Shown here: piece after piece, positions 5,002 to 51,215 of the stretch
How the letters are laid out: every line of letters starts with the position of its first letter
How positions within the stretch are numbered: the stretch's first letter is position 1
IMG/VR virus record: IMGVR_UViG_3300011400_000098
Coordinates: 1 to 58,463 of that record
From: a virus
DNA: 58,463 nucleotides
Strand: one strand, 5' to 3'
Translations under genes and position numbers: made by a program
Notes under the pieces: model-generated
Database searches by the model: none
What the model was told of the DNA's origin: nothing
Seen by the model: only the letters and a program-made list of their open reading frames with translations

Positions 5002-5248
5002 CGCAGACATCAACATCCAGCGTCGTTTCGATGGCGAAGTTCCTGAGTTCGAGTGCCGTGAAGCTGCCGTGTACGTCCATGTGTCCTGGATGACCTGGAT
5101 GCAAGAGATGGACGGATGGGACAGGGCTTGTGCAGTGGCACACTATCGCACGTCGCTCTCGTTAAAAGCGCATGTCGAGGATGCAGCCGAAAAAGCATCC
5201 AAGAGACGTGATGCCAGAAACGCACGGCGTAAATCGCGTTCTCGTTGA
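4964..5248 (+). CDS. Tail assembly chaperone, downstream frame (gpGT extension)
   Basis: This frame is offset +1 from the upstream chaperone and is open well before its stop. The conserved-looking part begins around MPLQDYHLTKKFDAD. Two routes of expression fit: a +1 frameshift at GGGG 4960-4963, where the next codon would be this ATG, or independent initiation at ATG 4964 behind the purine-rich GAGGGCGGGG. The C-terminus is Lys/Arg-rich. The stop overlaps a 22-bp dyad that fills the gap to the tape measure ATG. Confidence 0.7.
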   Translation: MPLQDYHLTKKFDADINIQRRFDGEVPEFECREAAVYVHVSWMTWMQEMDGWDRACAVAHYRTSLSLKAHVEDAAEKASKRRDARNARRKSRSR

Positions 5249-5268
5249 CTTTTTCATAGGTAAGAGTC
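5247..5268. promoter_or_regulatory. 22-bp dyad site a (chaperone/tape-measure junction)
   Basis: The halves are GACTTTTTC and GTAAGAGTC separated by 4 bp. The site overlaps the chaperone stop by two bases and ends exactly before the tape measure ATG. It also contains the AGGTAAG-like ribosome site of that gene. Confidence 0.6.
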
Positions 5269-8200
5269 ATGCCTCCTAACCTACCTCTGGTTGGCGTAGA
5301 AGCAGCCATTATTGGCATGAACGCCTTTAAGGCGAATGCCAATCTGGTTAACGCTATTCTGCAAAATATGGGGCGCGCTGCACGCGCGTTCTCACGCAAC
5401 TATGCGGCGGGTTCCCAGGACGCAGCCAAGTCTGACGCCCAGCGTGCGGCCGCAGCTGAGCGTGCGTCGAAGCAGGTCGCTCGCGCCAAGCAACAGGAGG
5501 CTGCTGCTAATCAGCGCGCGCAGCAGCAGATCGTCGCAGCCGAGAACAACCTAGCCACAGTCACACAAAACGCTGCTGAGAGGCGTACTAGAGCACGGGT
5601 CAACGCTACGACTGCTAGATCGCGTCTTGCCGCTATCGACCGTGCGGCAGACATCCAGGCAGAGGCGCAACAGAATCGTATACTTAGGTCGCAAGAGCGA
5701 CTAACTGCGGCTCAAAACCTGGCTAGTAAAGCTCCGACCGCTGCACGCGTCGCCAACGTCGAGAAAGCAAGAATCTCTCTCGCAGCCGCGACAGATCGCT
5801 TGGCGACCATCGAGCAACAGGCGTACAACAAGACTAGTCAAGCAGCAGCACAGGCAACGGCTGCAAACCAGAAATATGCAGTCACTCAACGAGCTACGGC
5901 TGCGCAGATCACACAAGCACAGGGCAGGCTCGCAGCCGCACAGCAGAACGCTACAACGGTCGCTGCGCAAGGGGCGCAGAAAGTCACGGCTGCCAATCAA
6001 GCGATGGCGGTTGCTTCGACGGTGGCGGCAACTACTGTGTCGATAGGCTTTGTGGCGATGGCGGCTGCAATTGTGGCGGCTGCTATTGGCGTCACAACAG
6101 CATTGGCCGATGTAGTCAGGAGTAGCGCGGCTTATCAGGATCAAATGACGTTCTTGGGTGTTGTGAGTAACACCACGGGTAAGGCGTTGTACGACTTGAG
6201 TATGGCCCAACTCAAGCTTTCACGCGATACTACTACAACTGCTACTGACCTTGCCATCTTGAGTGAGGAATTGCTCAAGGCTGAAGTCTCGTTCCAGCAG
6301 GTCACAGAGGGCGGAGCACTCAGATTCGCCAACGCTCTGGTTATTGCGTCCAACGGAGAACTGGACGCTGCGCGTGCTGCGATCACGATGAAGATCGCGC
6401 ACGATTCGTTCGCTGCGTCGGGTGCAACGTACGAATCGGCAGCCGATGCGATCAACGCGGCCGCTCAGAACTCGACGCTTACTCTAGGGAACATGGCTGA
6501 CGCCATCAAGCAAGGTGGCGCGACGGCAGCACGCTACGGCTTGTCAATCGAGGAGTTTGCTACAGCTGTAGCAATGTTGGGGCAAGTCATCCCGTCTGGT
6601 ACTGAAGCTGGTACTGGTCTGAGAAACATGTTCGTTCAGCTCCAGAAACCCTCCAAAGAGGGCAAGGAGTTGATGAACAAGTACGGGATTTCTTTGCACG
6701 ATGCGACAGGCAAGACACTCCCGTTCGTTGACGTCTTGCACGACTTGGAAGCTGCGTTTGGCCCCGCAGCTGTAGCTGCTAATGAAGTCACTGAGGCCGA
6801 GCGTGACTATGCGCTCGCTACGATTGCTGGAGAGCGCCAGCAAAAGATTCTAAGTACGCTTATCGAACAGGGAGTAGAAGGGTGGCGTAACCTAGCTACA
6901 GAGATATCCAACACAACGGGCGTAATGGACGCTCAGGAGAAGATTACTGCTAGTACAGCATCCTTGATGGAGACGTTGGGGAACAACGTCACGGCTCTTG
7001 GCTTGTCTTTCGGCCAAGGATTAGACCCTTATCTAAATGCAATTGTAGATGGCTTGGTGAGATTTGCCCAATCTGTTGATTCAACTTACGAAACTACTGA
7101 TGCGCTCGGGCAACTCGTTGGCGGGTTCCTGGCTAACGTATTCCTGAACCTGGGCGAGATTATCGGGTCTATCATCATCCCGACAATCATGTTCTTCTTC
7201 GACATGCTTGGTAATTGGATCAACCTGTTCATTGCGGTCGGTACGACCACAGCGCAGGTCGCGGGTCATATCGCTAGCGTGTTCGGGTCGATGGCCCAAA
7301 TCATCATTCAGACCATCGCTGCTATCGTCCAGTCGAAAGTCAGTTGGAGCCAAGCTTTCGCTCAGATCGGTGCGCTCATCGGCCAGAACATGAGCAACCT
7401 GGGCACACAAGCCCAGCAAATGGCTCAGGTGGTTATGGGCGGGTTCCAAGCGATGGCAAACGGGTGGGCCGCTACGGTCAACTCGGTTGCTAGTGGCGTC
7501 TCTGCGTTCGGCCAAAACTTGAACAACCTCGTACAAGGGGCTGTGCAGGCCGCCAACGGTGTCATCAACGCCTTCAATGGGCTGTCTAGCGCCATTGCAC
7601 GTATCTTGGGCGGCGTAGCCAGTGCCATCAACGGCTTCTTGGACGCTGCATCGGCCATTCCTGAAGTTGGTGAGCGCATTGGCGGTGCACGAGTAGCTGT
7701 TGGCCAGTTCGCAGGAGCGACAGCGGGGGCGGTAAGCGCAGCAGGCGTACAGATCGCTGGCGTGACCACAAGTGCCGGTAATGCGATGTCCGCATTGGGC
7801 ACATCTGCGAGTGGTGCAGCCGCTACAATTCAATCAAGTCTAGGTGCAGCAGGCGGGGCGTTCTCTAACTTTGGTACTAACGTAAACGCTTCTGTGGGGA
7901 ACCTTGGGAATTCGTTTGGCAACTTCTCGACTGATTCAATCGCTGCCATTCAGAAATTGGCGGCGAACCTCAAGATGCCCAACATCCAAAACTACGCTGA
8001 GGGCATCGCAGCGAAGATCGACAAAGCACGCAAGACGGTCGCAGAGCCGACACGCAAGCCCATCGCACGCGAGATTGGGGCTGACCCTAGCGACACTCCA
8101 CGCGGTACATTCCCAGGCAGTGGTGGTGACGGAGGCGCTGGAGACGCAGCGAAGAAGGCAGCTAAAGACCTCGCGGAAGCTATGAATGATGCTGCTGAGC

Positions 8201-10482
8201 TTCTGCGTGACTTCTTCGACGATATCGAGAACGCTGCACGCGATACGGCTAGACAGATTGGTGAAGCGTTCGAGAAGGCTGAGCTTGACGTAGCCAAGGC
8301 TGTTGCTTCCGCAGCCAAAGAAATTGATGATGCTATAGCAGACGCCAACAATTCTCTGAGGGAACTTAACAGCGAACGTGCGATCCAAAAAGACGCTGAC
8401 GCACGACGTGAAGCTCTAGAAAACGAACTTGAGTTCGAGCAGCGTCTGCGTGAGGAAAGTCTAGAAGATGCGGAAGTATTGTACCAGCGAGAGCTGGAAG
8501 ATATCGAGGCGATAGAAGATAAAAAGCGCCAAGCACGCGAGCAAGCGTTTGATCGTAACCAGGAACGCGAAGCGCGGGAGCGTGACGAACGACGTGAAGC
8601 AGAAGATCGTGACTATGATCGCAGCTTCGACAAGCTCGCGCGTGAGCTAGACAGCCAACAATCTCTGCGTGAGGACGCGCTTAGCAAGCAACAAAGCGCA
8701 CAAGAGGATTCGCTCGACGCGCAGCTCAAGGCGACTGAGGATACACTAGAACGCCAGCACAAGGCGCTTGAGGATGCACTAGATCGTGACCATGATGCGC
8801 GAGAGGCGGCGCTCGACGCCAGACTAGAGCAGGAAGAACGTGAGCTTGAGGCGTCACAAAAGGTACGCGAGGACGCCCTCAAGTCACAGTTCGAGTTTGA
8901 GGATATCGCACGCGAGCATGGCGAAGCTATTGGCGCAATCGAGCAAGAAGCCTCGTCAGGGCGTGCTAAGGCTCAATCAGAATACGCACAAGAACTTGCG
9001 ATTGGCGTCAAGGGTTCGATTGCACGCGCACGGCTAGAGGAAAAGCTGGCGGCGATCAAGGCCGAAGAAGATACGGCCAAAGAACGCCTCAGGATTAAAG
9101 AGGACGAGAACGCTAAAGAGCGTGTCGTCGAGCAAGATCAGGAACGGCGCCTCCAGGACCTGCAAAAGACATTCGAGGCGGAGAACGCTGCACGCGAGGC
9201 GGCGGCCGACGCGGCAAGGCTCGCACTTAAAGCGCAGATCGAAGCAGAGATTCTGGCGCTTCGTGCTGTCACAGAGGCACAAACTACAGCTCTACAAGTC
9301 CAGTCCGACGCAGCGCGGCGTGCATTGCGTAACCAGCACGAAGTCGAGATGGACGCCCTCCATGCTCGGCATGAGAAGGAGCGTGACGACCTATCAGATC
9401 GCATCGAGAATGATCGACTAAACAGACAAAAGGCGCGTGCGCGAGAAGATCGAGAATTCGCTGAGAAACAAGAGGCTGCCAAGCAAGCTTTCATCGAGGC
9501 AGAGAACAAGCGCCAGCTAGAGGAAACTCGCAAGAAGGAAGATGAGCAGCGCAATCGCAAGAGGGCGCAAGACTACGCTGCGATCTATCAGAAGCAGCTA
9601 GACGAAGCCAAGCGTGCGCGTCTTGCGGAAGAACTGGACGAAGAAGAATATCAGCGTCGCGTCCAGCAGATTCAGGACGAACGCGATAAGAAGATTCAGG
9701 CCACTGGGGTCACGCTGGAAGAACAGCAGCGTATGATCGCGGAGCAGCTTGATCGTGAAGTGCGTGATCTGAACGGCCAGCTTGAGGAGAAGATCACAAC
9801 GATCAAGGAACGCTATATAGACCGCATGGAGGATTTGCTGCGTGATGGCGGCGAAGCCATGCGTCCTATCATAGATAACATCGGTGAGCAGATGGAGAGC
9901 GCGTTCAGTGGCGCGCGTGATCGCGTCAACGAACTAATCACGGTTCTCCAGGCGTCTCTTGCTCAGGCAGCAGCCGTCACAAACGCTATTAACGCAATCC
10001 CGAAGATGCCATCCGCACCCACGACTGGCGGTGGCGGTGGCACAACCGGAGGCGGTGGTGGCGGTGGTGGGGGAAAGTGCGACTGGTACGGTATCTACAA
10101 CGCCTGTCGCGGCAACGGCGGTTCTGACAGTGCGTGTCGATCCAAAGCTGACAGCGAATGTCCACCAGAACGCAGAGCTAGTGGAGGCCCCGTACGTGCA
10201 GGGCGAACATACGTTGTAGGTGAGAACGGGCCGGAGATTTTCACCGCCCCTTACAACGGGACGATCATCCCGAACGGAATGCATATGCCTGGTGATTGTC
10301 CTAGCTGTCCAGGCTCGCCCGCAAGCGTACGTGCGCTAGAATCCATTTCACGCGGTATGAGTTCTAGTAGCTCCAGTACGATCAATAACTCGTACACTGT
10401 CAATGCTGCGTACGGCCGCACACAGCCTGAAGGCAGCCTCAAGATGGACTTGACAGCTTTGATCGCCCTTACTTCCAGGTAA
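5269..10482 (+). CDS. Tail tape measure protein
   Basis: At 1737 residues this is the longest gene and follows the chaperones. The N-terminal ~230 residues are Ala/Gln-rich helical. A hydrophobic stretch follows at ~243-280, then a TIGR01760-like tape measure core (roughly 285-480), and more hydrophobic segments around 640-700. A long charged coiled coil spans roughly 1000-1530. Near the C-terminus are a poly-Gly linker, two cysteine motifs (CDWYGIYNAC, CPSC) and the typical ending GGPVRAGRTYVVGENGPEIF. At about 0.15 nm per residue this predicts a flexible tail near 250 nm (inference). Confidence 0.93.
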   Translation: MPPNLPLVGVEAAIIGMNAFKANANLVNAILQNMGRAARAFSRNYAAGSQDAAKSDAQRAAAAERASKQVARAKQQEAAANQRAQQQIVAAENNLATVTQNAAERRTRARVNATTARSRLAAIDRAADIQAEAQQNRILRSQERLTAAQNLASKAPTAARVANVEKARISLAAATDRLATIEQQAYNKTSQAAAQATAANQKYAVTQRATAAQITQAQGRLAAAQQNATTVAAQGAQKVTAANQAMAVASTVAATTVSIGFVAMAAAIVAAAIGVTTALADVVRSSAAYQDQMTFLGVVSNTTGKALYDLSMAQLKLSRDTTTTATDLAILSEELLKAEVSFQQVTEGGALRFANALVIASNGELDAARAAITMKIAHDSFAASGATYESAADAINAAAQNSTLTLGNMADAIKQGGATAARYGLSIEEFATAVAMLGQVIPSGTEAGTGLRNMFVQLQKPSKEGKELMNKYGISLHDATGKTLPFVDVLHDLEAAFGPAAVAANEVTEAERDYALATIAGERQQKILSTLIEQGVEGWRNLATEISNTTGVMDAQEKITASTASLMETLGNNVTALGLSFGQGLDPYLNAIVDGLVRFAQSVDSTYETTDALGQLVGGFLANVFLNLGEIIGSIIIPTIMFFFDMLGNWINLFIAVGTTTAQVAGHIASVFGSMAQIIIQTIAAIVQSKVSWSQAFAQIGALIGQNMSNLGTQAQQMAQVVMGGFQAMANGWAATVNSVASGVSAFGQNLNNLVQGAVQAANGVINAFNGLSSAIARILGGVASAINGFLDAASAIPEVGERIGGARVAVGQFAGATAGAVSAAGVQIAGVTTSAGNAMSALGTSASGAAATIQSSLGAAGGAFSNFGTNVNASVGNLGNSFGNFSTDSIAAIQKLAANLKMPNIQNYAEGIAAKIDKARKTVAEPTRKPIAREIGADPSDTPRGTFPGSGGDGGAGDAAKKAAKDLAEAMNDAAELLRDFFDDIENAARDTARQIGEAFEKAELDVAKAVASAAKEIDDAIADANNSLRELNSERAIQKDADARREALENELEFEQRLREESLEDAEVLYQRELEDIEAIEDKKRQAREQAFDRNQEREARERDERREAEDRDYDRSFDKLARELDSQQSLREDALSKQQSAQEDSLDAQLKATEDTLERQHKALEDALDRDHDAREAALDARLEQEERELEASQKVREDALKSQFEFEDIAREHGEAIGAIEQEASSGRAKAQSEYAQELAIGVKGSIARARLEEKLAAIKAEEDTAKERLRIKEDENAKERVVEQDQERRLQDLQKTFEAENAAREAAADAARLALKAQIEAEILALRAVTEAQTTALQVQSDAARRALRNQHEVEMDALHARHEKERDDLSDRIENDRLNRQKARAREDREFAEKQEAAKQAFIEAENKRQLEETRKKEDEQRNRKRAQDYAAIYQKQLDEAKRARLAEELDEEEYQRRVQQIQDERDKKIQATGVTLEEQQRMIAEQLDREVRDLNGQLEEKITTIKERYIDRMEDLLRDGGEAMRPIIDNIGEQMESAFSGARDRVNELITVLQASLAQAAAVTNAINAIPKMPSAPTTGGGGGTTGGGGGGGGGKCDWYGIYNACRGNGGSDSACRSKADSECPPERRASGGPVRAGRTYVVGENGPEIFTAPYNGTIIPNGMHMPGDCPSCPGSPASVRALESISRGMSSSSSSTINNSYTVNAAYGRTQPEGSLKMDLTALIALTSR

Positions 10483-11433: not shown

Positions 11434-11925
11434 TTAGGGTTTCCCTCCATTTAATTCCCAAATCTGTTGTATTATTGCTTCTCTACGCTCTACTTCTTCT
11501 CGTGGTATGACGTGTCCTCGTGGCAACAGCTTTCGTGCAGTGTTCTTGGATGTTGTGCTAGATGCTATCACGATAGCGTTATATTCCCTAATGATTGTGT
11601 CTAGTTCAACGGCAAGCTGTACTTGCTTCTTTTTAATCACAAGATGTGGCAGTAACGTTGATACGAATAATATGGCGTTAGCGCCGTTAGCGTACCAGAC
11701 ATGAGTTTTTCTCCAATAATTTGGATTTCTTTTGTCAACGAAATGGCTGCCGTAGGGGAATTGTTCAGTGAGCATGACAATTATTGGTTCGTACGTGTTC
11801 GTGATTTGAGCACGCATAGGGTATCGGTAGCTGAATGTCCCTTCCGTGTTCACGTACCATTGACGTTGTACAGTGATGCACCCTTCACCGTCGAACAAAC
11901 CTGCGACGTACTCTAGAGTTAACAT
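11434..11925 (-). CDS. LAGLIDADG homing endonuclease
   Basis: The 163-residue protein begins with YVAGLFDGEGCI, a clear LAGLIDADG helix with its acidic residue. A single motif means it should work as a homodimer. It lies antisense between two plus-strand tail genes, is free-standing rather than in an intron, and has its own consensus promoter at 11943-11971 with a GGGAGA ribosome site. It is most simply read as a selfish insertion between tail genes. Confidence 0.88.
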   Translation of the reverse strand: MLTLEYVAGLFDGEGCITVQRQWYVNTEGTFSYRYPMRAQITNTYEPIIVMLTEQFPYGSHFVDKRNPNYWRKTHVWYANGANAILFVSTLLPHLVIKKKQVQLAVELDTIIREYNAIVIASSTTSKNTARKLLPRGHVIPREEVERREAIIQQIWELNGGKP

Positions 11926-16835: not shown

Positions 16836-16857
16836 GACTTTTACTTTTGAAAAAGTC
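16836..16857. promoter_or_regulatory. 22-bp dyad site b (ABC-GNAT / zinc-protein junction)
   Basis: The halves GACTTTTAC and GAAAAAGTC flank a 4-bp centre. As in site a, the dyad fills the whole gap between an upstream stop codon (16858-16856 on the minus strand) and the next ATG (16835). Confidence 0.65.
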
Positions 16858-17995
16858 AAGCCCTATCGTCATGCAACTGTCTAGCCAATCCGCGCTCCAT
16901 CACCGGCCCTACGTACTCGAACCCGGCCGTCAATCTATCAATCGCAATCGTGGCCCCTAGGGCGTCCCTATCCATCATGCCCCCACCCCTATTGCGCGAT
17001 GCTTCCCTATGATTGTTCCACTTGGCAGAGCGCGTGCAATGTCCTACAACGGCGGGATGTGACGTGGTAATCATGGCGCGATACCCGAGCGCACGCCACA
17101 TCGAAGCCACCAGTTCGTTGAGTGTGTTGCCGATCCCTACACCTTGGTAGTCAGGGAGCGTGACGATTCTTGAACTGCGCTTTAGATTCGGTATGCTACG
17201 ATGAGGCTGTGTGAGCCATCCGTTGAACGCGATAGGTCGATCCTTAATGAATGCTGCGAAGCACACCGCGGCCTCATTCATGGTGGCGCTCAGATAGTGA
17301 TGTCGAGCGAAACTCGGCCAGAGCGAATGATGGACCCGTTTGACGGTGAGGTGTATGTCCGGGCGTCGTTGAAGAAACCTCCAGGACATTAATGACGTTT
17401 GAGTGTCGAACACCCAGTCCGGCTGCAACCAGTCCAACACGTCGTAATGACACGTTGCTGCGATGAGCTGCAAGCCTCTTTTCCTGACCGTCCTGGCGAT
17501 GGCACTCGACCCCACCTGTGCAACTGTACGATCCACGACAGAAGTAAACTCGTCTACTATGTATGGCATGGCGCCTGTGGCAATCGTCTCTGCCAGCCCG
17601 CGCGCAATCGAAACGCGAAACTGCTCGCCCATGCTCAGTACATAGTACGGCCGCATCCACGCAGGAGGCGACGAGAACCCCACACTACACAGCAACTCTA
17701 CGATCTGCGTGACAGGCATCCCCTTCGGGAACATGTCGAGTACACTTTTGTCGTAAGACCACTCGTACCCAGGGTCGCTATACCCAAACACCTGACGTAA
17801 GATCGAGCTCTTACCTGAGCCCGATGGCCCTACGATCAAGCCGATATTCCATTGCCTGTCGGTCAAGTCGATATTATATGGGATTTCGACCGATGAAATC
17901 TCCATCGGCGGTACGTCGAACATACCCGACATTTGTAGCGTACGTGCAGATCTGACGATAGGTGAGCTGAGCTTGATTACGCCGGACTTGTTCAA
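16856..17995 (-). CDS. ABC-type ATPase fused to a GNAT acyltransferase domain
   Basis: The N-terminal half has a Walker A (GPSGSGKSS), an ABC signature-like LSMGEQFRVSIARGL, Walker B (MPYIVDEFT) and a switch His (ATCHYDV). There are no membrane segments, so it is not a transporter. The C-terminal half is GNAT-like, with the acetyl-CoA loop VTLPDYQGVGIGNTL. TTG 17995 overlaps the previous stop (TTGA) behind AAAGG, though a longer TTG frame from 18052 exists. With the Mom-like and ParB-like neighbours it may belong to a DNA base-modification module (inference). Confidence 0.8.
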   Translation of the reverse strand: MNKSGVIKLSSPIVRSARTLQMSGMFDVPPMEISSVEIPYNIDLTDRQWNIGLIVGPSGSGKSSILRQVFGYSDPGYEWSYDKSVLDMFPKGMPVTQIVELLCSVGFSSPPAWMRPYYVLSMGEQFRVSIARGLAETIATGAMPYIVDEFTSVVDRTVAQVGSSAIARTVRKRGLQLIAATCHYDVLDWLQPDWVFDTQTSLMSWRFLQRRPDIHLTVKRVHHSLWPSFARHHYLSATMNEAAVCFAAFIKDRPIAFNGWLTQPHRSIPNLKRSSRIVTLPDYQGVGIGNTLNELVASMWRALGYRAMITTSHPAVVGHCTRSAKWNNHREASRNRGGGMMDRDALGATIAIDRLTAGFEYVGPVMERGLARQLHDDRA

Positions 17996-18615
17996 CGGAG
18001 AGCCTTTCTTATCTGAGCTGCCAGTTCGGAGGGGCTGTTTTGGGACATCCAATTTATATCCTGTGGTTTAGATGGTTCCGGGTAAAGATCGGGCGTTAGT
18101 ATGAAAGCAGGCAGACCTAATTCAGTAAACCCGTCGGCGATGAACCCGGCCTTGATGAAGCACCGCCCCGGGCGGCTGCTGTGCGCCTGGGACGGACGGC
18201 CGTAGCTGCGTTTAGGGCGTACATGTGCCGGGTCGATGAACGTGACCATACAAAACGGTTCGGGCGCACGCCATGTGGGGTTGTCCCCGTGCAAGCAATA
18301 CCATCGTGTTGCAGCGACGGCTGATTTGATTAGATCAGACGCCAAGTGTGGGCAATTCGGCTCTCTACGAAAAGCCGTACATACCCACGCGCTGTTCAAT
18401 CCGTCTGTCCAGCGATGCTTGACATACTCGCCATACGGCCATGATGTGATCCAAAACGCGCCGAGAGTCTTAAGAACCAGCGTGCGTCCGGGTGGAGCAA
18501 ACTGGCGACTGTCAGGATTGTGCCGGTTGTAGTGCCGATTGGCATAGACGCGAGCGTTGTCGTCGGCTTTGTTGGCCATCTGCCAGGGACTGTCACAAGA
18601 CCATTGCACGGACAT
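17992..18615 (-). CDS. Mom-like/GNAT-fold acyltransferase candidate
   Basis: The 207-residue protein has ANRHYNRHNPDSRQF, PPGRTLVLKT, SAWVCTAFRREP, ASDLIKSAVAATRW, VTFIDPAHVRPKR and PGRCFIKAGFI. The last is a GNAT-like acyl-CoA segment found in phage proteins related to the Mu Mom DNA-modification enzyme. I recognise the pattern rather than a proven homology. It overlaps the ParB-like gene and is coupled to the ABC-GNAT gene, which supports a joint role. Confidence 0.55.
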   Translation of the reverse strand: MSVQWSCDSPWQMANKADDNARVYANRHYNRHNPDSRQFAPPGRTLVLKTLGAFWITSWPYGEYVKHRWTDGLNSAWVCTAFRREPNCPHLASDLIKSAVAATRWYCLHGDNPTWRAPEPFCMVTFIDPAHVRPKRSYGRPSQAHSSRPGRCFIKAGFIADGFTELGLPAFILTPDLYPEPSKPQDINWMSQNSPSELAAQIRKALR

Positions 18616-19294
18616 TATACCCTTCTTCGACCAGACGCTCTAGCAAATCAGCTTGTGTGGTTTCGTCAGGACAGTCCACCAGGATAGCGTATCGCGTGAC
18701 TTTCTCCTGCTGCGATTGGGTACCGTTGGCCTGTGACGCTGCTTTAGCTTCGCCCTGATCTTGCGCCATTTGCTCGCGCATTTGGGTATTTCCAGTATAG
18801 AAGGCCCTGGCAGCGTAGTTGGCTGTGTATTGCCGGCCATCTGCACCCGTAGTTGTAAGGGCTTTAAGCTCGGCTTTCTCGGCGTCGGATAGGTCGTCGA
18901 TATCGCGTGACACAGTGGCGATACTTATTGATAAGAGAGAAGCGATCTTGCTCATCGTGTAGCTGTAGGGCGGCTTGCGTAGCGTCACTATTAGCTGCTG
19001 TCGCTGCTCTGCGTTCAAGTGGCGACGCTTGAGATTAAGCGACAACACGTAGGCGACTTTTTCTTCCTCGCTGCTGAACCTACGAGTGATCTTGTCGAAC
19101 ATAGGCAGATCGACGCCTTCTTCGATTAGTTCTGAAAACACCTCGAACCTGTGGTGGCCGTCGATGATTGCGCCGTTTTCGTCGAATTCGAGTGGTACGA
19201 TGATACCTTTCTCTCGAATGTCCTGCTTGAGTTGAGCGCGTTCTTCTGCTGTCATGGCAGGCATGAGCTGATATCTGTAATCAGTCGATGTCAT
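18593..19294 (-). CDS. ParB/Srx-like protein with helix-turn-helix
   Basis: The 233-residue protein has the ParB N-terminal fold (IREKGIIVPLEF, AIIDGHHRFEV). This is followed by an HTH region (LNAEQRQQLIVTL, MSKIASLLSISIATVSRDI), a polar linker and a small C-terminal domain. No ParA partner is present, so plasmid partition is unlikely. Phage ParB-like proteins are often nucleases, ATPases or DNA-binding factors. Its ATGA overlap links it to the RuvC-like gene. Confidence 0.85.
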   Translation of the reverse strand: MTSTDYRYQLMPAMTAEERAQLKQDIREKGIIVPLEFDENGAIIDGHHRFEVFSELIEEGVDLPMFDKITRRFSSEEEKVAYVLSLNLKRRHLNAEQRQQLIVTLRKPPYSYTMSKIASLLSISIATVSRDIDDLSDAEKAELKALTTTGADGRQYTANYAARAFYTGNTQMREQMAQDQGEAKAASQANGTQSQQEKVTRYAILVDCPDETTQADLLERLVEEGYNVRAMVL

Positions 19295-23451: not shown

Positions 23452-23567
23452 GGTGACAGAGATTCCTTGTCCTTGTCTGCTACCCTCTGTACGATACCGT
23501 ACAAGTCCGGTTCAAGGTAGACTTTCGCGTGGAAGATTTTGTCATTGGTAGCAGAACTAACTGCCAT
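23367..23567 (-). CDS. Ribbon-helix-helix-type DNA-binding protein
   Basis: The 66-residue protein has a short strand (HAKVYLEPDLY) followed by two helices (IVQRVADKDKE, LSPWLRKLILKELIS), the ribbon-helix-helix pattern. AGGAG precedes the ATG. Proteins of this kind bind palindromic operators as dimers. It overlaps the end of the primase-helicase gene. Confidence 0.6.
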   Translation of the reverse strand: MAVSSATNDKIFHAKVYLEPDLYGIVQRVADKDKESLSPWLRKLILKELISRGEVPQEILIKLASG

Positions 23568-26015: not shown

Positions 26016-26037
26016 GACCTTTACAATGGTAAAAGTC
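26016..26037. promoter_or_regulatory. 22-bp dyad site c (upstream of primase-helicase)
   Basis: The halves GACCTTTAC and GTAAAAGTC are separated by AATG. It lies in the 76-bp gap between the 26048-26287 gene and the primase-helicase start at 25971. Confidence 0.7.
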
Positions 26038-34036: not shown

Positions 34037-34717
34037 TCAGTCGTAGACTTTGGCATAAATGCCAGTGGACACGCGGGTAGCCTCACCGATCTTGACCAGG
34101 TTGCTCAGTATGCTCGACACGTTCTGCAGCATGCGCTTGGGGTTTGTTCCTAGGATTGAGGCTAGCTCATCACCGAGGTCTTTGCAGCGCACCTGCGGAT
34201 TGTCTGCGAGCTTCCCACGCACCCAGTCGAATTGGGTCTGGTTGCCAGGCAGCTTGTGTGGCTTGCCCTGCTTGCGCTTGGTTGGCGCGAGCGGGGCGTT
34301 GGGCAACAGTTCCACATCGAGTACGCTCACGACTTCGAGTGCCTTCTCTATTGTGGCGCGCTGTGCGGTGAGCGTCTGTACGTGGGTGTCGGATTGCTCT
34401 GCTAGAGCCATGTAGCGGTCGCGTTCCTCCTTGTGTTTGACGATCTGATCGCCGAGGTGGGCGAGGAGCCTGGTTGACGCCTCACCGAACATGTCTACTG
34501 CGCCGGCATTGCCTGACTGGCTGATGAACATACGCCAGTGGTCGGCATTGTGAATGAGTGTGGTGTAGCCAGTCTCGTTGTCCTGAACTTCGACCACGGC
34601 CTCGGTGTCGTGTGCTACCATTACTCGCTTGACTGAGTATGGCGCGTGCGATTTGTCGATAGTGGCGGCCAGGCAGGTCGCCTCATCGGAGGTCATGTGT
34701 GTGCGTGTGAGAGCCAT
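34037..34717 (-). CDS. Putative DNA-binding protein with winged-helix-like C-terminus
   Basis: The 226-residue protein has a central coiled coil (LGDQIVKHKEERDRYMALAEQ). Its C-terminal domain (FDWVRGKLADNP, CKDLGDELASILGTNP, NVSSILSNLVKIGEATRV) reads like a winged helix. It is one of the better candidates for a phage-encoded transcription or replication regulator. Confidence 0.65.
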   Translation of the reverse strand: MALTRTHMTSDEATCLAATIDKSHAPYSVKRVMVAHDTEAVVEVQDNETGYTTLIHNADHWRMFISQSGNAGAVDMFGEASTRLLAHLGDQIVKHKEERDRYMALAEQSDTHVQTLTAQRATIEKALEVVSVLDVELLPNAPLAPTKRKQGKPHKLPGNQTQFDWVRGKLADNPQVRCKDLGDELASILGTNPKRMLQNVSSILSNLVKIGEATRVSTGIYAKVYD

Positions 34718-34784
34718 TTCTCGGATGCTGTCCCTTCGGTATATTGATAGAAGTTAAGGTTTAGTTTGTGGTTTAGTAGGGGGT

Positions 34785-34807
34785 GGGGCCTGTGGTTAGC
34801 AGGCCCC
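34785..34807. other. Intercistronic hairpin
   Basis: An 8-bp GC stem (GGGGCCTG / CAGGCCCC) with a 7-base loop lies in the 104-bp gap after the 34822 gene stop. It has no T-tract. Confidence 0.5.
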
Positions 34808-34821: not shown

Positions 34822-35349
34822 CTAGGCGGAGGGGTTGTTGCGCTTGGCGGCTCGCAGCTCGCGACGACGTGCGCGCTGTGCCTCCTTGCGCTCGTCGGGT
34901 GTGGCGTACTGCGAGCGGTTGATGGGCTTGCGCGGAGTGGGCAGGAGTGTGATGTTGGAGGGCGTAGTTGCTTGTGCTTGCGCGGTGCGGTGCTCGTCCA
35001 GGAGCCGACGGATCATCTCGTTGCGTGCCTTGCGCTGCTCGCGCTTGGCGGCCTCCCTAGCGAGCTGCGCGTGCGACTTGGCGGGCGGTACGAGGATGTC
35101 GAGCTTGAGCTGATCGTGGTCGAGGGCGAAGTCCAGGTCTTTGTCCTCGGCGCACTCGATACTGGCGCACCAGTTCGTGAACCCGTCCTGGATGTCCTCG
35201 TTGAGCTGCCCTTGCATGTAGGACTTGACCAGTTCCTCGACCTGGCTCGCGGCTTGTGGCGTCGCGTCGAGGGACAGGTTGAACGTGATCGTGACGGTGG
35301 TTGAGTAGATCGGTTCGTGCGTCGGTTCCGGCGGGAGTGTGTCGTGCAT
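34822..35349 (-). CDS. 'YAT'-tail basic protein (paralogue of 36414 and 43127 genes)
   Basis: The N-terminal half is alpha/beta (STTVTITFNLSL, AASQVEELVKSYM) and the C-terminal half is highly basic, with KARNEMIRRLLDEHR, NRSQYATPDERKEAQRARRRELRAAK. The YATPxE-EAQxA-R segment recurs in two other genes of this window. It probably binds DNA or RNA through the tail. Dyad site d lies 59 bases upstream. Confidence 0.7.
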   Translation of the reverse strand: MHDTLPPEPTHEPIYSTTVTITFNLSLDATPQAASQVEELVKSYMQGQLNEDIQDGFTNWCASIECAEDKDLDFALDHDQLKLDILVPPAKSHAQLAREAAKREQRKARNEMIRRLLDEHRTAQAQATTPSNITLLPTPRKPINRSQYATPDERKEAQRARRRELRAAKRNNPSA

Positions 35350-35407: not shown

Positions 35408-35429
35408 GACATTTACGTTTGCAAAAGTC
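35408..35429. promoter_or_regulatory. 22-bp dyad site d (upstream of the 34822-35349 gene)
   Basis: The halves GACATTTAC and GCAAAAGTC flank GTTT. The symmetry extends outward by GGCC on the left and GGCC on the right, making this the longest inverted repeat of the set. It sits in a 90-bp intergenic gap. Confidence 0.7.
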
Positions 35430-38833: not shown

Positions 38834-39691
38834 TTAGCGGCTGCGGTTGTAGCGTCGGCTGGAGCTTGAGCGGTACCTGCGCTCGAACGGGTCTTGGTAG
38901 ATGTAGGTATCGGGGTCGAACGCTGGGGACTTGTCGGGGTCGTTGTACAGTTCGATCTTCTCCTTGAGCCAGGTTTCGGGTTCTTCGAGCATCGGATCAT
39001 ACAAGAAGATGGAGGGGAGGAACAGGTCTTGCGGGTTCGCCCCCAGATGCTCGCGCATCTTCTTCTCGTTGTATGCGTCGGGGTGCCACGCACCAGTCAC
39101 GCCGGGGTTGTCGAGCCTACAGGCGTCGATCCCTACGTGCCTGACCACATCGGGCTCGCTGAGTGAGGCCATGATCGTGGACAGGTTTATGGGGGATGTA
39201 GTGATGTCCCAACTGATGATTGACCCATCGCGGCGGTAGCTGCCCAGGTTCACGTAGGGGGTGATCAGTACTTGGCGCTTCTTGCTCATCATGATCGCGA
39301 ACGCGGCCAGAACTGCACCACGCTTGACGAGTTGCGCTTCGCTGATACCGCCGGATGAAGTCACGCCCACCCAGATTCGCAGAGGAGCCTTGTCGCTCAT
39401 GTCAGGTAGGAGGTTCCACATGCAGTCGGGCTGGCCCGCGAGGAACGTGGGTACGTCGGGGAAGGCACCTGCTACGTCATGCTCCCATGTGAGAGAGGGG
39501 ACTTCGACGGCCTGCTCGAAGCTCTCCAGGAACTTGTCAGCGAGCTTGGCGTTCTTGTCGTTGCCATCCTCTAGGTCCCGCAGACCTTGCAGGGTCTTGT
39601 CGCGGGACCAGCCAGAGGACTGATCGTCGTTGTTGCGGAACCACTTAGCGAATTCGCGTGGGGAGCTGAAGTGCTTGCTTGTGAATGTCAT
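38834..39691 (-). CDS. VWA-like protein (DUF7192-type), partner of the MoxR ATPase
   Basis: ATG 39691 overlaps the ATPase stop (ATGA) with GGAGG upstream. The 285-residue protein has RIWVGVTSSGGISEAQLVKRGAVLAAFAIMM and later VNLG and PDVVRHVGID, matching phage VWA-like proteins with a degenerate metal site (VTSSG in place of DxSxS). AAA+ plus VWA pairs act as chaperones that remodel or load partners. Confidence 0.7.
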   Translation of the reverse strand: MTFTSKHFSSPREFAKWFRNNDDQSSGWSRDKTLQGLRDLEDGNDKNAKLADKFLESFEQAVEVPSLTWEHDVAGAFPDVPTFLAGQPDCMWNLLPDMSDKAPLRIWVGVTSSGGISEAQLVKRGAVLAAFAIMMSKKRQVLITPYVNLGSYRRDGSIISWDITTSPINLSTIMASLSEPDVVRHVGIDACRLDNPGVTGAWHPDAYNEKKMREHLGANPQDLFLPSIFLYDPMLEEPETWLKEKIELYNDPDKSPAFDPDTYIYQDPFERRYRSSSSRRYNRSR

Positions 39692-41157
39692 CGTGTGCCT
39701 CCGAAGTCGATGTGCTTCGGGTCTTGAGGCAGAGTGGGCGTGGCGAGCGTGGTGGGTGCGATTGATGTGGCGGAGTCTGGCTTGTAGTTGCGGAGCCAAG
39801 TGTCGATCTGACGCAGCGGCTCGGGCCACGATCCGTCGCGCTCGCGGAACTTACCAAAGATCGCCTCGACCACCAGAGCTGGGCGCACGCCCCGGCTGAG
39901 CAGGGCTCCGCCTCGGCTGGTCGCGCGTGGGCTAATCACGATCTTCAGCTCTTTGGTGTTGCACGCGGCCCTACAGGCCTGGACTAGGCGCGTCCAATCA
40001 GGCACCTTGCCGAACGCCATCTCCAGATCGTTGTCGTAGCCCCAGGACAGAGTAAAGAACCGGTCGAGGGTCGCGTCGTCGAGCTTGTTCCGCCCCATGT
40101 AGTTGGCGTCACCGCCGAACCCCCAGGTGTTGGCCGCTGCGATGATGTAGCAGTCCTTGTGGCGGGGGACGAGCTTGTCAGGGAAGTCGTGGAACCCGTT
40201 GGCAGTTGCAGCGTTGATTTCGAGGAGAGCGTTGGCAGAGGAGCCATCCATCTCGTCGAGCAGGATCACGCCACCGTTCTCGTAGATGTGGCGGAACCCA
40301 GTCCCTACATAGTCGCCCTTGGCGTCCATGTAACCTGAGATTTGGAACGGAGTAGCGACTGCACCCCTCGCGCGGAAGTGGGTGGTCTTCGCTTTCTCCT
40401 CCCCGAACAACGCCACAGCGACGAGGAACGCGCCGGTCGTCTTACCAGAACCCGCCGGCCCGGCCAGATAGCCGTTTCTATCTGGGGCGTCCAGGTTCAT
40501 CATCAGCTCGATCAGATCGAGTTGGCGGAAGTGCTTCAGACCCTTGAGTTGGGTCGTGGTGCCATCTGCGGCCTTGACGGTGAGCGTCTTGCCTGTGTCG
40601 GCTTGCTTTTCGAGCTGCTCGATGCGGAGCTTGGCACCAGCGAACTGGGACTTCAGCTCGTCGTACTGCTTGATGATCTGGTCGGTTCTGGCGCGCTCTT
40701 GCGCGACGTTGGTTTTGGCGTCTTGCGCGGTCGTTAGGGAGGCCAGCGCGGCGTCCTCAACGTCATTGAGGCGACCCGCGATAGCAGTGAGCACTTCCTC
40801 GCCCAGGTTGCTGTTGGTAGCGCCGTTGGCCGAGGGCAGTTCGACGGGCTTCGTCTCGTGGGAGTGCAGAAGCTCTTGGCTGGGCGTGGCGGTCGTGGTC
40901 TTGGGCAGATCAACGCCCTTGTCGTGCGCGACGTGCGCGTTTGCGATGAGCTGCTCGCGCTCGCTTTGCGGCTTCCAGACAGAGCGCCCGCTCCACTCGT
41001 TCTGGATGTTCCAGGCGTCGTGGCGGTCGTGCGCGGTGGGGTCGTCCCTGTGGTAGATCGTGGCTTTGTGCCACTGAACGATGGTAGGCGAACCAATGGT
41101 CGTGTGACCGTGGTTCAACTGCCCATCGTCCTTGAGCAGATACTTCGTGCTGGTCAT
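39688..41157 (-). CDS. MoxR-type AAA+ ATPase
   Basis: In the 489-residue protein, residues ~140-190 form a coiled coil. Then comes the AAA+ core: YLAGPAGSGKTT (Walker A), GVILLDEMDGS (Walker B), IIAAANTWG (sensor 1) and LDDATLDRFFTL (arginine finger region). This fits the CbbQ/NorQ/MoxR group. Its VWA-like partner is the next gene. The transcript begins with a 9-bp hairpin. Confidence 0.88.
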   Translation of the reverse strand: MTSTKYLLKDDGQLNHGHTTIGSPTIVQWHKATIYHRDDPTAHDRHDAWNIQNEWSGRSVWKPQSEREQLIANAHVAHDKGVDLPKTTTATPSQELLHSHETKPVELPSANGATNSNLGEEVLTAIAGRLNDVEDAALASLTTAQDAKTNVAQERARTDQIIKQYDELKSQFAGAKLRIEQLEKQADTGKTLTVKAADGTTTQLKGLKHFRQLDLIELMMNLDAPDRNGYLAGPAGSGKTTGAFLVAVALFGEEKAKTTHFRARGAVATPFQISGYMDAKGDYVGTGFRHIYENGGVILLDEMDGSSANALLEINAATANGFHDFPDKLVPRHKDCYIIAAANTWGFGGDANYMGRNKLDDATLDRFFTLSWGYDNDLEMAFGKVPDWTRLVQACRAACNTKELKIVISPRATSRGGALLSRGVRPALVVEAIFGKFRERDGSWPEPLRQIDTWLRNYKPDSATSIAPTTLATPTLPQDPKHIDFGGTR

Positions 41158-41214
41158 TGCTTTGGCTGCTAGCCCCTCCGTTGAGTTCAGATCAGTGATT
41201 GCGCGCTAGTGTGG

Positions 41215-41237
41215 GGTGGAGGGCAGAACCCTCCACC
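41215..41237. other. Hairpin at the 5' end of the MoxR transcript
   Basis: A perfect 9-bp stem (GGTGGAGGG / CCCTCCACC, 5-base loop) begins within about two bases of the predicted transcript start of the promoter at 41241-41269. It could protect the 5' end or hide a GGAGG sequence. Confidence 0.6.
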
Positions 41238-41240
41238 TAT

Positions 41241-41269
41241 AGTATACACGCAGAACGTGCGGAAGTCAA
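41241..41269 (-). promoter_or_regulatory. Sigma70-type promoter for the MoxR/VWA operon
   Basis: The minus strand reads TTGACT (41269-41264), 17-bp spacer, TATACT (41246-41241). Confidence 0.82.
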
Positions 41270-41305
41270 TAGGCAGAACCAGGACTGGCACATACTGCTA
41301 AGTAT

Positions 41306-41506
41306 TCAGTCCTGCGTCTGGTCGGCGACGTACGCGCTGAGCAGGCGGCCGTTGATCGTGATCTGGCTCGCGCCCATCGCGTCGCCTTCCATGAGCATCC
41401 GCGCTTTCAGCTTCGTGGCCTGGCGCAGACGTGAGGGTCGCGTGCCGCGTGCGTGGACTGGTAGGCGGTGCGGTGGTGGGTTCGGCGGGCAAGTGACTGT
41501 GTACAT
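41306..41506 (-). CDS. Small basic hypothetical protein
   Basis: ATG 41506 lies behind AAAGGAG. The 66-residue product has a Pro/Arg-rich N-terminal half and a C-terminal strand-turn segment (SQITINGRLLSAYVA). Not recognised. Confidence 0.6.
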   Translation of the reverse strand: MYTVTCPPNPPPHRLPVHARGTRPSRLRQATKLKARMLMEGDAMGASQITINGRLLSAYVADQTQD

Positions 41507-41538
41507 GGCATGGCAGCTCCTTTCTCTGTAATGGTAGC

Positions 41539-41560
41539 GACTTTTACAGTTGAAAAAGTG
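41539..41560. promoter_or_regulatory. 22-bp dyad site e
   Basis: The halves GACTTTTAC and GAAAAAGTG flank AGTT. It lies about 32 bases upstream of ATG 41506 on the minus strand. Confidence 0.7.
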
Positions 41561-41736: not shown

Positions 41737-41758
41737 GACTTTTGCATTTGTAAATGTC
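41737..41758. promoter_or_regulatory. 22-bp dyad site f
   Basis: The halves GACTTTTGC and GTAAATGTC flank ATTT. It is 177 bp from site e in the same gene-free region. Confidence 0.68.
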
Positions 41759-43126: not shown

Positions 43127-43534
43127 TTAGGCGATAGCGGCGCGCTCCTCCTCCGTGAGCTTCGTCGCGTCCCCACCAGCGGCGTGGAGCTTCAGAAGAG
43201 CGCGGATCTTGGCGTTGCGCGAGGCGGTTTGCGCTTTCTTGGCTTGAGCGGCCTCCTCTTTGGTCGCGTACTTGGCGCGGGGCTTGGCAGACGCGACCTC
43301 GATCCCGAAGTGGGAGCAGACGATTTGCTTGAGTAGGCCACCACGCGACGCGCCGGACGTGGCGCACTCGGCATCAATCGCGGCGAGTAGCTCGGGCGTC
43401 ATGGTCACGGCGATGTAGCGCAGATCGGCGGACTTTTCGGTCTCAGACACGGCGGGAGCTCCCTCATTCTTTCCATCAACGGCGGTCATCTCGGCAATCA
43501 TGGCGGCTTCGGTGTTGGTCATCTCGGCGGTCAT
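43127..43534 (-). CDS. Ribbon-helix-helix protein with basic 'YAT' tail
   Basis: The core (YIAVTMTPELLAAIDAECA, SRGGLLKQIVCSHFG) reads as ribbon-helix-helix. The tail has KYATKEEAAQAKKAQTASRNAKIRALLKLH, shared with the 36414 and 34822 genes. Two starts have good ribosome sites: ATG 43534 (AAGGA) and GTG 43450, which directly follows the 12-bp element at 43451. Both a 135- and a 107-residue form are possible. It is the first gene of the leftward arm, a natural place for a regulator. Confidence 0.78.
   Translation of the reverse strand: MTAEMTNTEAAMIAEMTAVDGKNEGAPAVSETEKSADLRYIAVTMTPELLAAIDAECATSGASRGGLLKQIVCSHFGIEVASAKPRAKYATKEEAAQAKKAQTASRNAKIRALLKLHAAGGDATKLTEEERAAIA
43451..43462 (-). repeat. 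GGAGCTCCCGCC element preceding GTG 43450
   Basis: Identical to the copy at 43007, again immediately followed by a start codon, here internal to the longer reading frame. Confidence 0.65.
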
Positions 43535-43693: not shown

Positions 43694-43722
43694 TTGACAA
43701 GCCAACAGACATCGCGTATACT
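43694..43722 (+). promoter_or_regulatory. Rightward late-arm promoter
   Basis: TTGACA (43694-43699), 17-bp spacer, TATACT (43717-43722). Transcription should start near 43729, about 80 bases before the first structural-arm gene. No extended -10. Confidence 0.9.
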
Positions 43723-43786: not shown

Positions 43787-43815
43787 ATTATATCATAACC
43801 CCACGCCTATGTCAA
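43787..43815 (-). promoter_or_regulatory. Leftward arm promoter, overlapping the rightward leader
   Basis: The minus strand reads TTGACA (43815-43810), 17-bp spacer, TGA-TATAAT (43792-43787), a perfect promoter with extended -10. Its -35 box includes bases of the 43809 start codon, and its transcript (from ~43780) runs back through the rightward promoter. Confidence 0.9.
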
Positions 43816-44318
43816 CTTCACCGCCGACATTTACAGACGAAAAAGTCATCTCACCCAACGACGCCATTGGCTTCTTAATCCAAGCCAAAGGCAACGCCAG
43901 CCTAGCAGCTGTCTACGCCTCCAAAGAACTAAACTCCCCCACGCCAATCAGCGAAGCCCAACTAATCGCAGCAATCACCAACTCAGACGACCCCCAAGCT
44001 GTAGCACGCAACCTCTCCAGCCTAACCGCCCAACTACGCATTCTACTCGTACTCAACACCGTCGAAGCCTTTCGTATCACCCACACAGCCTACCTACAAA
44101 TGATCCCCCACCTATCAGCAAAAGAAACAGCCAACACCTATACCAAACTCCTTGACGCACTAACCGTCCTGGCTACCCCTCCCCCACCTGCCCAAACCAA
44201 CTCCCCCTCACCCTCATCGCAACTCACCGCAGAAACCCTTCGCGCACTCATGCCTCCCGAAGTCCAAGCTGCCCTCGACCAACTCACCCCACCAACAAGC
44301 CCTACCCCCACACCATGA
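43809..44318 (+). CDS. Putative terminase small subunit-like protein
   Basis: This 169-residue helical protein is the first gene of the packaging/structural arm. It has an acidic-polar N-terminus, helices (SEAQLIAAITNSDDPQAVARNLSSL, QLRILLVLNTVEAF) and a Pro-rich tail. TerS identity is inferred from position; no HTH is certain. There is no ribosome site before ATG 43809. The strand is extremely C-rich. Confidence 0.55.
   Translation: MSTSPPTFTDEKVISPNDAIGFLIQAKGNASLAAVYASKELNSPTPISEAQLIAAITNSDDPQAVARNLSSLTAQLRILLVLNTVEAFRITHTAYLQMIPHLSAKETANTYTKLLDALTVLATPPPPAQTNSPSPSSQLTAETLRALMPPEVQAALDQLTPPTSPTPTP
43826..43847. promoter_or_regulatory. 22-bp dyad site g (divergent control region)
   Basis: The halves GACATTTAC and GAAAAAGTC flank AGAC. 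It lies 11 bp beyond the -35 box of the leftward promoter and inside the first codons of the 43809 gene, an operator-like position. Confidence 0.7.
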
Positions 44319-47082: not shown

Positions 47083-47343
47083 GTGCGGTTGAGCCAAGCA
47101 ACTCCCCCCATCGCTAGGGGCGAAGAATACAGGAATCGCTTGCAGAAGTTCCTCACGCAAGGAACTCTGTATATACAGTCAACGAATCATGTGATAATCC
47201 GACGTCTGGTTCTAGAAGGTAATCAAAACTCTTTCGCTTACGGGATTTGCTGTTTTAGATGTAGCACAATCTCATGGACGCCTGATGATGTCAACGGAAG
47301 ATATTGCCCCAGTTGCAGAATCTACCACGGCGGTATCCAGTAA
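47083..47343 (+). CDS. Zinc-ribbon protein, copy 1 of a tandem pair
   Basis: GTG start behind GAGGG. The C-terminal region YGICCFRCSTISWTPDDVN...CPSC is clearly related to the next gene (YGIGCFSCGKISWNINDVN...CTIC), as is the KFLxxG...VIIRR strand. The pair looks like a local duplication that has diverged. Confidence 0.65.
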   Translation: MRLSQATPPIARGEEYRNRLQKFLTQGTLYIQSTNHVIIRRLVLEGNQNSFAYGICCFRCSTISWTPDDVNGRYCPSCRIYHGGIQ

Positions 47344-47551
47344 GTTCCTAGAATGGGGCGATATTATATATCAAAACCAAGACTACGCCATTATAAGGCG
47401 CTATTATATCAGCAACCTCTCGCACCCCTTCGCGCATCACTCAATGTACACCCTAGGCACACACGAGTACGGGATTGGTTGCTTCTCCTGCGGAAAAATA
47501 TCGTGGAACATCAACGACGTGAACGCCAGAAGTTGCACGATCTGTGAGTGA
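47285..47551 (+). CDS. Zinc-ribbon protein, copy 2 of a tandem pair
   Basis: Paralogue of the preceding gene, overlapping it by 59 bases in another frame. ATG 47285 or 47288. Carries CFSC and CTIC with the shared DVNxR linker. Confidence 0.65.
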   Translation: MMSTEDIAPVAESTTAVSSKFLEWGDIIYQNQDYAIIRRYYISNLSHPFAHHSMYTLGTHEYGIGCFSCGKISWNINDVNARSCTICE

Positions 47552-50336: not shown

Positions 50337-50488
50337 GCGTATTTGATATCGTCCTCATCATCCTCGCGTGCGTGTTCTTCTTCATTGCTGCCGTTAGCCC
50401 CCACCTACGTAACAACCCGCAGCCTTCGATCAACTGGCTTGCGTGGGGACTTTTCTGCTGGGCGCTCAGCGTGCTACCTTGGTTCTAA
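50333..50488 (+). CDS. Tiny two-segment membrane protein (51 residues), holin-like candidate
   Basis: ATG 50333 overlaps the previous stop (ATGA). Two hydrophobic stretches (IVLIILACVFFFIAAV, WLAWGLFCWALSVLPWF) are joined by a short polar loop. The clean overlap and composition make it a plausible gene. Confidence 0.6.
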   Translation: MSVFDIVLIILACVFFFIAAVSPHLRNNPQPSINWLAWGLFCWALSVLPWF

Positions 50489-50498
50489 GCTCAGCAAC

Positions 50499-51215
50499 GT
50501 GACGACTATTACGCAGGAAAAAGTCGGGGAGAGCCCGTTGCTTGGCCCGGATTGCGTTACGGCCTTGCCACCACGGCGTGCGCCCGCTCCGAAATTGTTG
50601 GACTTGTTCTGTGGCGAGGGCGGGGCTGGACACGGCTACTCATTGGTAGGGTTCGATGTGACGGGGGTGGATATCAGGGTACAGGAGCGATACCCGCACA
50701 GGTTCGTTTGCGATGATGCGCTAGAGCATCTTCGGCGTCATTGGCGCGAGTTTGACGTGATCCATGCGTCTCCGCCGTGTAGAGCGCATTCCCTTATGAA
50801 ATATGTGACACAAGAAGCCTACTTTGACTTCATTCCCGTGTTGCGAGACATTTTGTTACAAATCAGAAAGCCTTATATTATCGAAAACGTCGAAACGGCC
50901 CCTTTGCGCGACCCAATATTGCTATGCGGTGGAATGTTCGGCCTCAGGACGTATCGCCATCGTATCTTCGAGACGAATATGGTCATTCCTAGGCTCAGAC
51001 ACCACACACACGAACATCAAACGGCTCCGGTTGGGCGCTCTGCGTGTGCGAATGAGTATCTGAACCTTGTAGGGCACTTCCCCGACGTAGAGCTGGCTAG
51101 ACGTGTAATGTCGATGCCTTGGGCGTCCAGAGATGGGATCGCTGATGCTGTACCGCCTGCATACACACAGTATCTCGGTGAGTACGCTATGGCGTTCGTG
51201 GAGGCTTTCCGATGA
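50499..51215 (+). CDS. Cytosine-C5-type DNA methyltransferase, compact
   Basis: The motifs are LLDLFCGEGGAGHGY (I, SAM binding), HASPPCRAHS (IV, catalytic Cys), IIENVETA (VI), FGLRTYRHRIFE (VIII) and PPAYTQYLGEY (X-like). At ~240 residues it almost lacks a target recognition domain. GTG 50499 or TTG 50538 (GGGGAGAG upstream) may be the start; dyad site h overlaps this region. Confidence 0.85.
   Translation: MTTITQEKVGESPLLGPDCVTALPPRRAPAPKLLDLFCGEGGAGHGYSLVGFDVTGVDIRVQERYPHRFVCDDALEHLRRHWREFDVIHASPPCRAHSLMKYVTQEAYFDFIPVLRDILLQIRKPYIIENVETAPLRDPILLCGGMFGLRTYRHRIFETNMVIPRLRHHTHEHQTAPVGRSACANEYLNLVGHFPDVELARRVMSMPWASRDGIADAVPPAYTQYLGEYAMAFVEAFR
50504..50525. promoter_or_regulatory. 22-bp dyad site h (methyltransferase start)
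   Basis: The halves GACTATTAC and GAAAAAGTC flank GCAG. It lies between the 50333 gene and the likely translated core of the methyltransferase, where GC skew flips back to G-rich. Confidence 0.65.

Follow-up and report, generated by a model that had tools for sequence, protein, structure and literature searches.

The window analysed here is the whole 58,463 bases of the IMG/VR virus record IMGVR_UViG_3300011400_000098. It carries eight copies of a 22-bp dyad, at 5247, 16836, 26016, 35408, 41539, 41737, 43826 and 50504, and we found these sites to be conserved in related phages. They are best read as dispersed ParB-family loading sites, of a new variant, in a tailed phage. In our estimate the probability is roughly 0.6 that the dyads serve as parS/NBS-like loading sites (NBS, Noc-binding site) for the phage's own ParB-family protein, acting at a distance in the manner of KorB and Noc.

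The dyads stand well apart from the rest of the window. The pattern GACWTTTACNNNNGWAAAAGTC, with up to three mismatches, gave 16 matches, which are the eight places read on both strands, and no other place; in shuffled versions of the window 0.06 matches are expected, with a maximum of one in 100 shuffles. An unguided search for any dyad family of 9-4-9 form returned exactly the eight sites, and a weight matrix built from them scores them at 26.7–33.6, the next-best place reaching 7.5. Pattern, matrix and unguided search together confirm the eight dyads reported in the initial annotation. In three genomes the intervals between sites round the circle are slightly more regular than chance would give when the close pair is merged (p 0.02–0.05), and p is 0.10 when all eight window sites are counted; we regard this slight evenness as weak evidence.

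The base counts over the 16 half-sites are G15 A16 C16 T12 T14 T16 T16 A9/T5/G2 C16. Positions 1–3 (GAC), 6–7 (TT) and 9 (C) are essentially invariant, positions 4, 5 and 8 vary, and the 4-bp centre is free in sequence but A+T-rich. The arms do not covary, with position 8 pairing with 15 in two of the eight sites and position 4 with 19 in four, which rules out an RNA hairpin or intrinsic terminator. The feature is therefore a DNA site whose half-sites are read separately as double-stranded DNA.

The contig ends join in frame within one 899-codon glycosyltransferase-like gene (57015–58463 plus 1–1251), so the genome is closed or circularly permuted; the record is a complete circle even though it has no end repeats. 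By their PHROG matches, the early and replication genes run leftward from about 43.8 kb to 14.1 kb, and the late genes run rightward from 43.8 kb, across the join, to 14.1 kb. The dyads are scattered over both the early and the late transcription units, at the following positions (the dyads carry no strand), with one strong early promoter beside them.

5247..5268, no strand: dyad S1, GACTTTTTCATAGGTAAGAGTC; gives bases 2–3 of the TGA stop of 4859–5248 and abuts the ATG at 5269 of the tape-measure gene.
16836..16857, no strand: dyad S2, minus-strand sequence GACTTTTTCAAAAGTAAAAGTC; between the stop of the ABC-GNAT gene (TGA 16858–16856) and the ATG at 16835.
26016..26037, no strand: dyad S3; 44 bp upstream of the primase gene 23557–25971(-).
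35408..35429, no strand: dyad S4; in the gap upstream of 34822–35349(-).
41539..41560, no strand: dyad S5; within the stretch that precedes the AAA-ATPase gene 39688–41157(-).
41737..41758, no strand: dyad S6; in the same region upstream of the AAA-ATPase gene, 198 bp from S5.
43826..43847, no strand: dyad S7; covers codons 6–13 of the first late gene, which starts at ATG 43809; the -35 box of a 12/12 minus-strand promoter is 10 bp away, with the dyad on its upstream side.
50504..50525, no strand: dyad S8; covers codons 2–9 of a C5-methyltransferase gene that probably starts at GTG 50499 and lies ahead of the portal-like gene 51212.
43787..43815, minus strand: strong sigma-70-like early promoter, TTGACA-17-TATAAT; adjoins S7.

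The initial annotation had placed every dyad in a gap or at a gene start and none deep in a gene. This describes the window well, except that S7 and S8 fall within open reading frames, where they cover the first codons. It had also described two dyads as exactly filling the space between a stop codon and the next ATG. S1 and S2 do occupy 20-bp stop-to-start gaps in this way, with the ATG directly after the last base of the dyad, but the upstream TGA also borrows the first two bases of each. The gene that ends at S2 (16856–18052, minus strand) encodes a fusion of an ABC-type ATPase with a GNAT-like acetyltransferase domain (phrog_11143); it is present in the distant relative G001 introduced below and missing in the sister phage G002.

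The sister phage IMGVR_UViG_3300027743_000032 (G002), identical to the window at 94% in the capsid and 68% in the DNA polymerase, has five window-type sites with matrix scores of 17–24.5, the next place scoring 7.7. The site at 27717 is at the tape-measure start, in the same stop-to-start position as window 5247 (S1), and that at 48252, at the primase start, is the counterpart of window 26016 (S3). The site at 6684 lies upstream of the AAA ATPase gene, the regional counterpart of S5; that at 15063 is a short way upstream of the gene orthologous to the portal-like 51212 (compare S8); and that at 56817, about 50 bp upstream of an 11/12 promoter, is the probable counterpart of window 35408 (S4). 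Of the 117 stretches picked out when viral contigs were scanned with a broad pattern, most are chance matches, but two are true relatives: fragment L065 keeps the primase-start site at 4073 (the S3 place) and fragment L008 keeps the S2 place at 2463. Sites syntenic with S2 also occur in L155 (7445), G001 (58803), G011 (21778) and G012 (2184). At homologous places the half-sites are kept and the dyad centre drifts.

The window-type site was not found in G001 (IMGVR_UViG_3300018083_000446, 65 kb), a distant relative with about 35–55% identity. An unguided dyad search of that genome returned a diverged version, seven copies of ASCWTTTCCAWWTGGAAAAGST (also given as ASCTTTTCCAWWTGGAAAAGST). One copy, at 29869, is directly upstream of the portal-like gene, in the place of window 50504 (S8), and the copy at 58803 is at the end of the ABC-GNAT gene, in the place of window 16836 (S2). 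The close G001 relatives G011 and G012 keep dyad copies within their range. Judged by the sequences, this is one dyad family, diverged in sequence and kept at some of its places. The weight-matrix scan that the initial annotation had proposed gave no comparable place in the window besides the eight, and syntenic sites in the sister phage. Searches of a phage collection with the window DNA and with the portal-like protein gave no match, and an unweighted clustering of dyads over many loci was swamped by GC-rich noise.

The likely binder is encoded within the window.

18593..19294, minus strand: ParB-family protein, putative dyad binder, with a ParB/Srx-like N domain, a helix-turn-helix (HTH) and a short C-terminal domain.

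This protein of 233 residues matched PHROG ParB-like families at about 1e-8. Its AlphaFold model has a mean predicted local distance difference test score (pLDDT) of 84, and Foldseek with the model gave Spo0J, NBS-bound Noc, ParB and KorB (1vz0, 7ol9, 7bm8, 8qa9) at probability 1.0. The best sequence match among solved structures was a profile match to Noc (7ng0) across the N domain and HTH, with an E-value of 1.8e-9. The predicted structure shows a ParB-family fold. This family is familiar mainly from bacteria, where its members move and organise chromosomes and plasmids. Among recognisable HTH proteins it is the sole one found conserved in the window, G002 (61%) and G001 (37%).

The initial annotation had named three candidate binders, a ribbon-helix-helix (RHH), a ParB-like and a winged-helix-like protein, of which the ParB-like protein has emerged as the best and the other two have been weakened. 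The RHH and winged-helix proteins were rejected as binders, neither giving a tblastn match in the sister phages at 1e-5. RHH relatives in other genomes were detected by phmmer only, at E-values of 1e-5 to 1e-8, and the predicted contact strands of RHH differ between the window and G002 although the sites agree.

We found that the type of site is linked to the type of ParB recognition helix in the sequences compared. The helices SIATVSR and SIATASR of the window and G002 pair with GAC-TTTT-[ATG]-C. The helix GVGTVWR of G001, G011 and G012 pairs with A[GC]C-TTTT-CC-A. The helix GVGTIWR of L155 pairs with GACATTTCCACATGGAAAAGTG, GAC-ATTT-CC-A, a site with outer bases as in the window type and inner bases as in the G001 type. 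The phage IMGVR_UViG_3300037424_000492 (G008) was found solely by a scan for the G001-type dyad. Its own gene for a ParB-HTH-Dam methyltransferase contains a perfect dyad, placed just past the codons for the helix GVGTAYR; this helix again pairs with A[GC]C-TTTT-CC-A. The ParB-like protein is the only G008 protein common to the window phage (E<0.01) or to G001 (E<0.001); the RHH and winged-helix proteins are not common to it. G008 is the strongest single piece of evidence for a pairing of ParB and dyad. Outside the window, dyads do occur in gene interiors: the G008 copy is within the parB-like gene, and the G001 site at 14196 is also inside a gene.

The same pairing bears on the idea that the dyads are sites of a host DNA-binding protein exploited by the phage. 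That G001 has another motif could mean that it has another host, but the dyad type follows the phage ParB helix even in the unrelated G008, and we give this explanation almost no weight. A search for close relatives of the G008 ParB returned no protein besides the query. Four other exact matches to the G001-type dyad (L216, L217, L221 and L227) lack a neighbouring ParB-like gene in the sequence inspected, and we leave them as chance or unexplained.

The phage sites can be set in the register of known ParB-family sites. The parS half-site reads G1 T2 T3 T4 C5 A6 C7 and that of NBS reads A1 T2 T3 T4 C5 C6 C7. The two differ at positions 1 and 6, numbered from the dyad axis (PMC7383237). In that register the window sites read T1 T2 T3 [A/T/G]4 C5 N6 N7, with few exceptions at position 1, and the G001 sites read T1 T2 T3 C4 C5 A6 W7. 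In the window, G001 and L155 sites alike, T2, T3 and C5 are as far from the dyad axis as they are in parS and NBS. The phage sites reach further outward than parS and NBS, through an outer GAC or ASC. The likeness to the Noc/NBS system of Bacillus is thus one of dispersed palindromic sites with the T2, T3, C5 core in the same register; the phage sites differ in being 22 bp long with the outer GAC or ASC, in having T at position 1 and in positions 4, 6 and 7, and the phage protein has no assigned membrane-targeting helix.

We propose that a dimer of the ParB-family protein would bind each dyad with one half-site per subunit, contacting the outer GAC and the core TTTT-x-C, and would be loaded there. 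The loaded protein would then, like KorB and Noc, act along kilobases of neighbouring DNA. It may coat the circular genome of the phage or organise it, and silence promoters that lie far off, instead of serving as a local operator at each promoter. Three observations favour action at a distance: most dyads are away from recognisable promoters, two of them sit in 20-bp gaps too small for a promoter, and the sites are spread through early and late transcription units. At the level of promoter matches of at least 10/12, only S7 has a match within 100 bp; the other seven window dyads are separated from any match by some 300 bp or more, reaching several kilobases. Four dyads besides S7 are roughly 300–600 bp from a strong match. 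Further TTGACA-17-TATAAT promoters on the minus strand, besides that at 43815, are at 32920 and 26839.

KorB of plasmid RK2 offers a precedent. Its OB operators, TTTAGCSGCTAAA, are dispersed on a circular element of about 60 kb, and the window matches this with eight sites in a closed circle of 58 kb. The fold matches of the phage protein include the KorB structure 8qa9. KorB, a CTP clamp of the ParB family, slides away from its RK2 operators and can act on promoters at distances of up to 1.5 kb (PMC11790492). The phage system differs from KorB in its site sequence, in that no KorA partner or ParA was identified, and in its altered CTP motifs; the clamp activity of the phage protein is putative.

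Several points weigh against the loading-site interpretation. The binding of the dyads by the ParB-like protein is inferred from sequence, and the helix-site correlation comprises about five types, which makes it suggestive and not a statistical proof. Six more distant phages with ParB-like proteins (G017, G018, G019, G020, G025 and G026) gave no comparable dyad family, so the pairing may be limited to the clade of the window. In the phage protein GHHR stands in place of the ParB motif GERR, and LNLKR in place of ENLQR, so that a CTP clamp cannot be assumed. R49 and N87 are invariant in 40 homologues, the other residues of those motifs are not, and the two probably correspond to Noc R89 and N121, which are required for CTP binding. 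The C-terminal part consists of a helix (169–190) and a short segment, the solved-structure matches cover only the N domain and HTH, and no canonical C-terminal dimerisation domain was recognised in the model or by Foldseek. Finally, S7 and the G002 site at 56817 adjoin strong promoters.

The promoter-proximal sites suit a different explanation, in which the dyads are local operators or stoperator-like roadblocks where the ParB-like protein or another regulator, such as the RHH protein 43127–43534, blocks transcription without loading or sliding. Most dyads are at gene starts or in gaps; two sites, S7 and G002 56817, closely precede promoters, by 10 bp (a perfect early promoter) and by about 50 bp (an 11/12 promoter); and RHH relatives are present in all three genomes at the phmmer level. 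The promoter distances of the other seven window dyads do not suit it. The RHH proteins are poorly conserved, and G008 has the dyad yet only the ParB-like protein in common. The comparison with phage stoperators had been drawn in the initial annotation. The likeness is in the many short sites over a phage genome, often between genes, but in cluster A mycobacteriophages stoperators have an asymmetric sequence, and an immunity repressor binds them (PMC9283540). The window sites are palindromic, their probable binder is of the ParB family, and no phage integrase or serine recombinase was matched. We therefore set the stoperator analogy aside and consider local operators unlikely. The alternative term in the initial annotation, organisation sites, fits the ParB assignment, and its interpretation is partly supported overall. 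It had also placed one dyad beside divergent promoters. S7 does adjoin a strong promoter, but at the early/late boundary two near-perfect sigma-70 promoters, 43694–43722(+) and 43815–43787(-), point head-on and not apart, with their -10 boxes about 65 bp from each other.

A ParB-family protein with many parS-like sites around a closed circle could also belong to a plasmid-like phage in which the sites are dispersed centromeres serving partition. Phage N15 is such a case, a linear plasmid-prophage with a ParA (SopA) and several dispersed inverted repeats bound by the ParB-family protein SopB. Papers on N15 segregation are cited in PMC5016525. The window resembles it in having dispersed inverted repeats and a ParB-family protein in a phage genome. 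Unlike N15, ParA was not found: profile searches for ParA (AAA_31, CbiA) found none in the window (G000), G001, G002 or G008, and 14 of 14 control genomes were positive. A lysogeny module was likewise not seen. The failure to find ParA and integrase makes classical partition and classical lysogeny control less likely, and we regard dispersed centromeres as improbable.

In sister phages the ParB-HTH module is fused to methyltransferases of four families, D12 (G002), N6_N4_Mtase (L155), Dam (G008) and MT-A70 (L172), which makes a role in DNA modification possible. The module could bring a methyltransferase, fused in the sisters and separate in the window, to the phage genome, and S8 is at the start of the window's C5-methyltransferase gene. 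However, the ParB-like versions of the window and G001 have no methyltransferase domain and the sites are still kept. A published ParB-methylase cited in PMC5512222 is credited with nicking activity and not with site targeting. We hold modification targeting, as the main purpose of the dyads, to be quite improbable. Under the loading-site interpretation, the loaded ParB-family protein may double as a platform for modifying DNA. Fusion loci of the ParB-HTH-methyltransferase kind were seen at L151 9995–11563, L155 5403–6806, L219 11209–12312 and L172 9995–11053. The fusions share the ParB/Srx-like plus methyltransferase architecture with a known phage protein, Bce_0392 of B. cereus (cited in PMC5512222); the window protein differs in having no methyltransferase domain. 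The passages of that paper on ParB-methyltransferases mention no DNA sites of the dyad kind, and in literature searches of partial coverage we found no paper assigning dispersed DNA sites to phage ParB-methyltransferase proteins.

Several other features of these genomes deserve mention. Small, fast-evolving proteins, several of them RHH, carry a basic C-terminal motif like YATxEEREAAQ, and there are one or two per genome.

Window 43127–43534 and 34822–35349: small proteins of the YATxEEREAAQ type.
G002 7862–8509 and 56899–57297: small proteins of the same type.
G001 34343–34804 and 40924–41514: small proteins of the same type.

Short Cys-rich stretches, such as CGGCGVCAACATQTATGC and CDSAQCGACGVASDGC, occur in several virion or late proteins of the window (1–1251, 1601–2884, 2900–4372 and 54945–56387). 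A LAGLIDADG-type homing endonuclease (11434–11925, minus strand) lies between tail genes, opposite to the late genes, and has its own 11/12 promoter at 11971. Two related small Cys-rich genes stand in tandem at 47083–47343 and 47285–47551 and are paired in G002 too.

Many phages encode ParB-like proteins, and these are often fusions with DNA methyltransferases. A broader idea, which we put forward as doubtful, is that the phage loads a ParB-family clamp on its own genome only, via lineage-specific sites, and that the clamp or a fused methyltransferase would mark, protect or silence phage DNA along its whole length and tell it from host DNA. The present case offers a named protein, named sites, natural variants of both and an independent phage with the same pairing, so that function and specificity are directly testable. 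If the dyads are indeed loading sites, the parS/NBS/OB family would extend to a tailed phage without ParA, and the relatives described here would provide a natural series of site and helix changes in which the evolution of ParB specificity may be studied.

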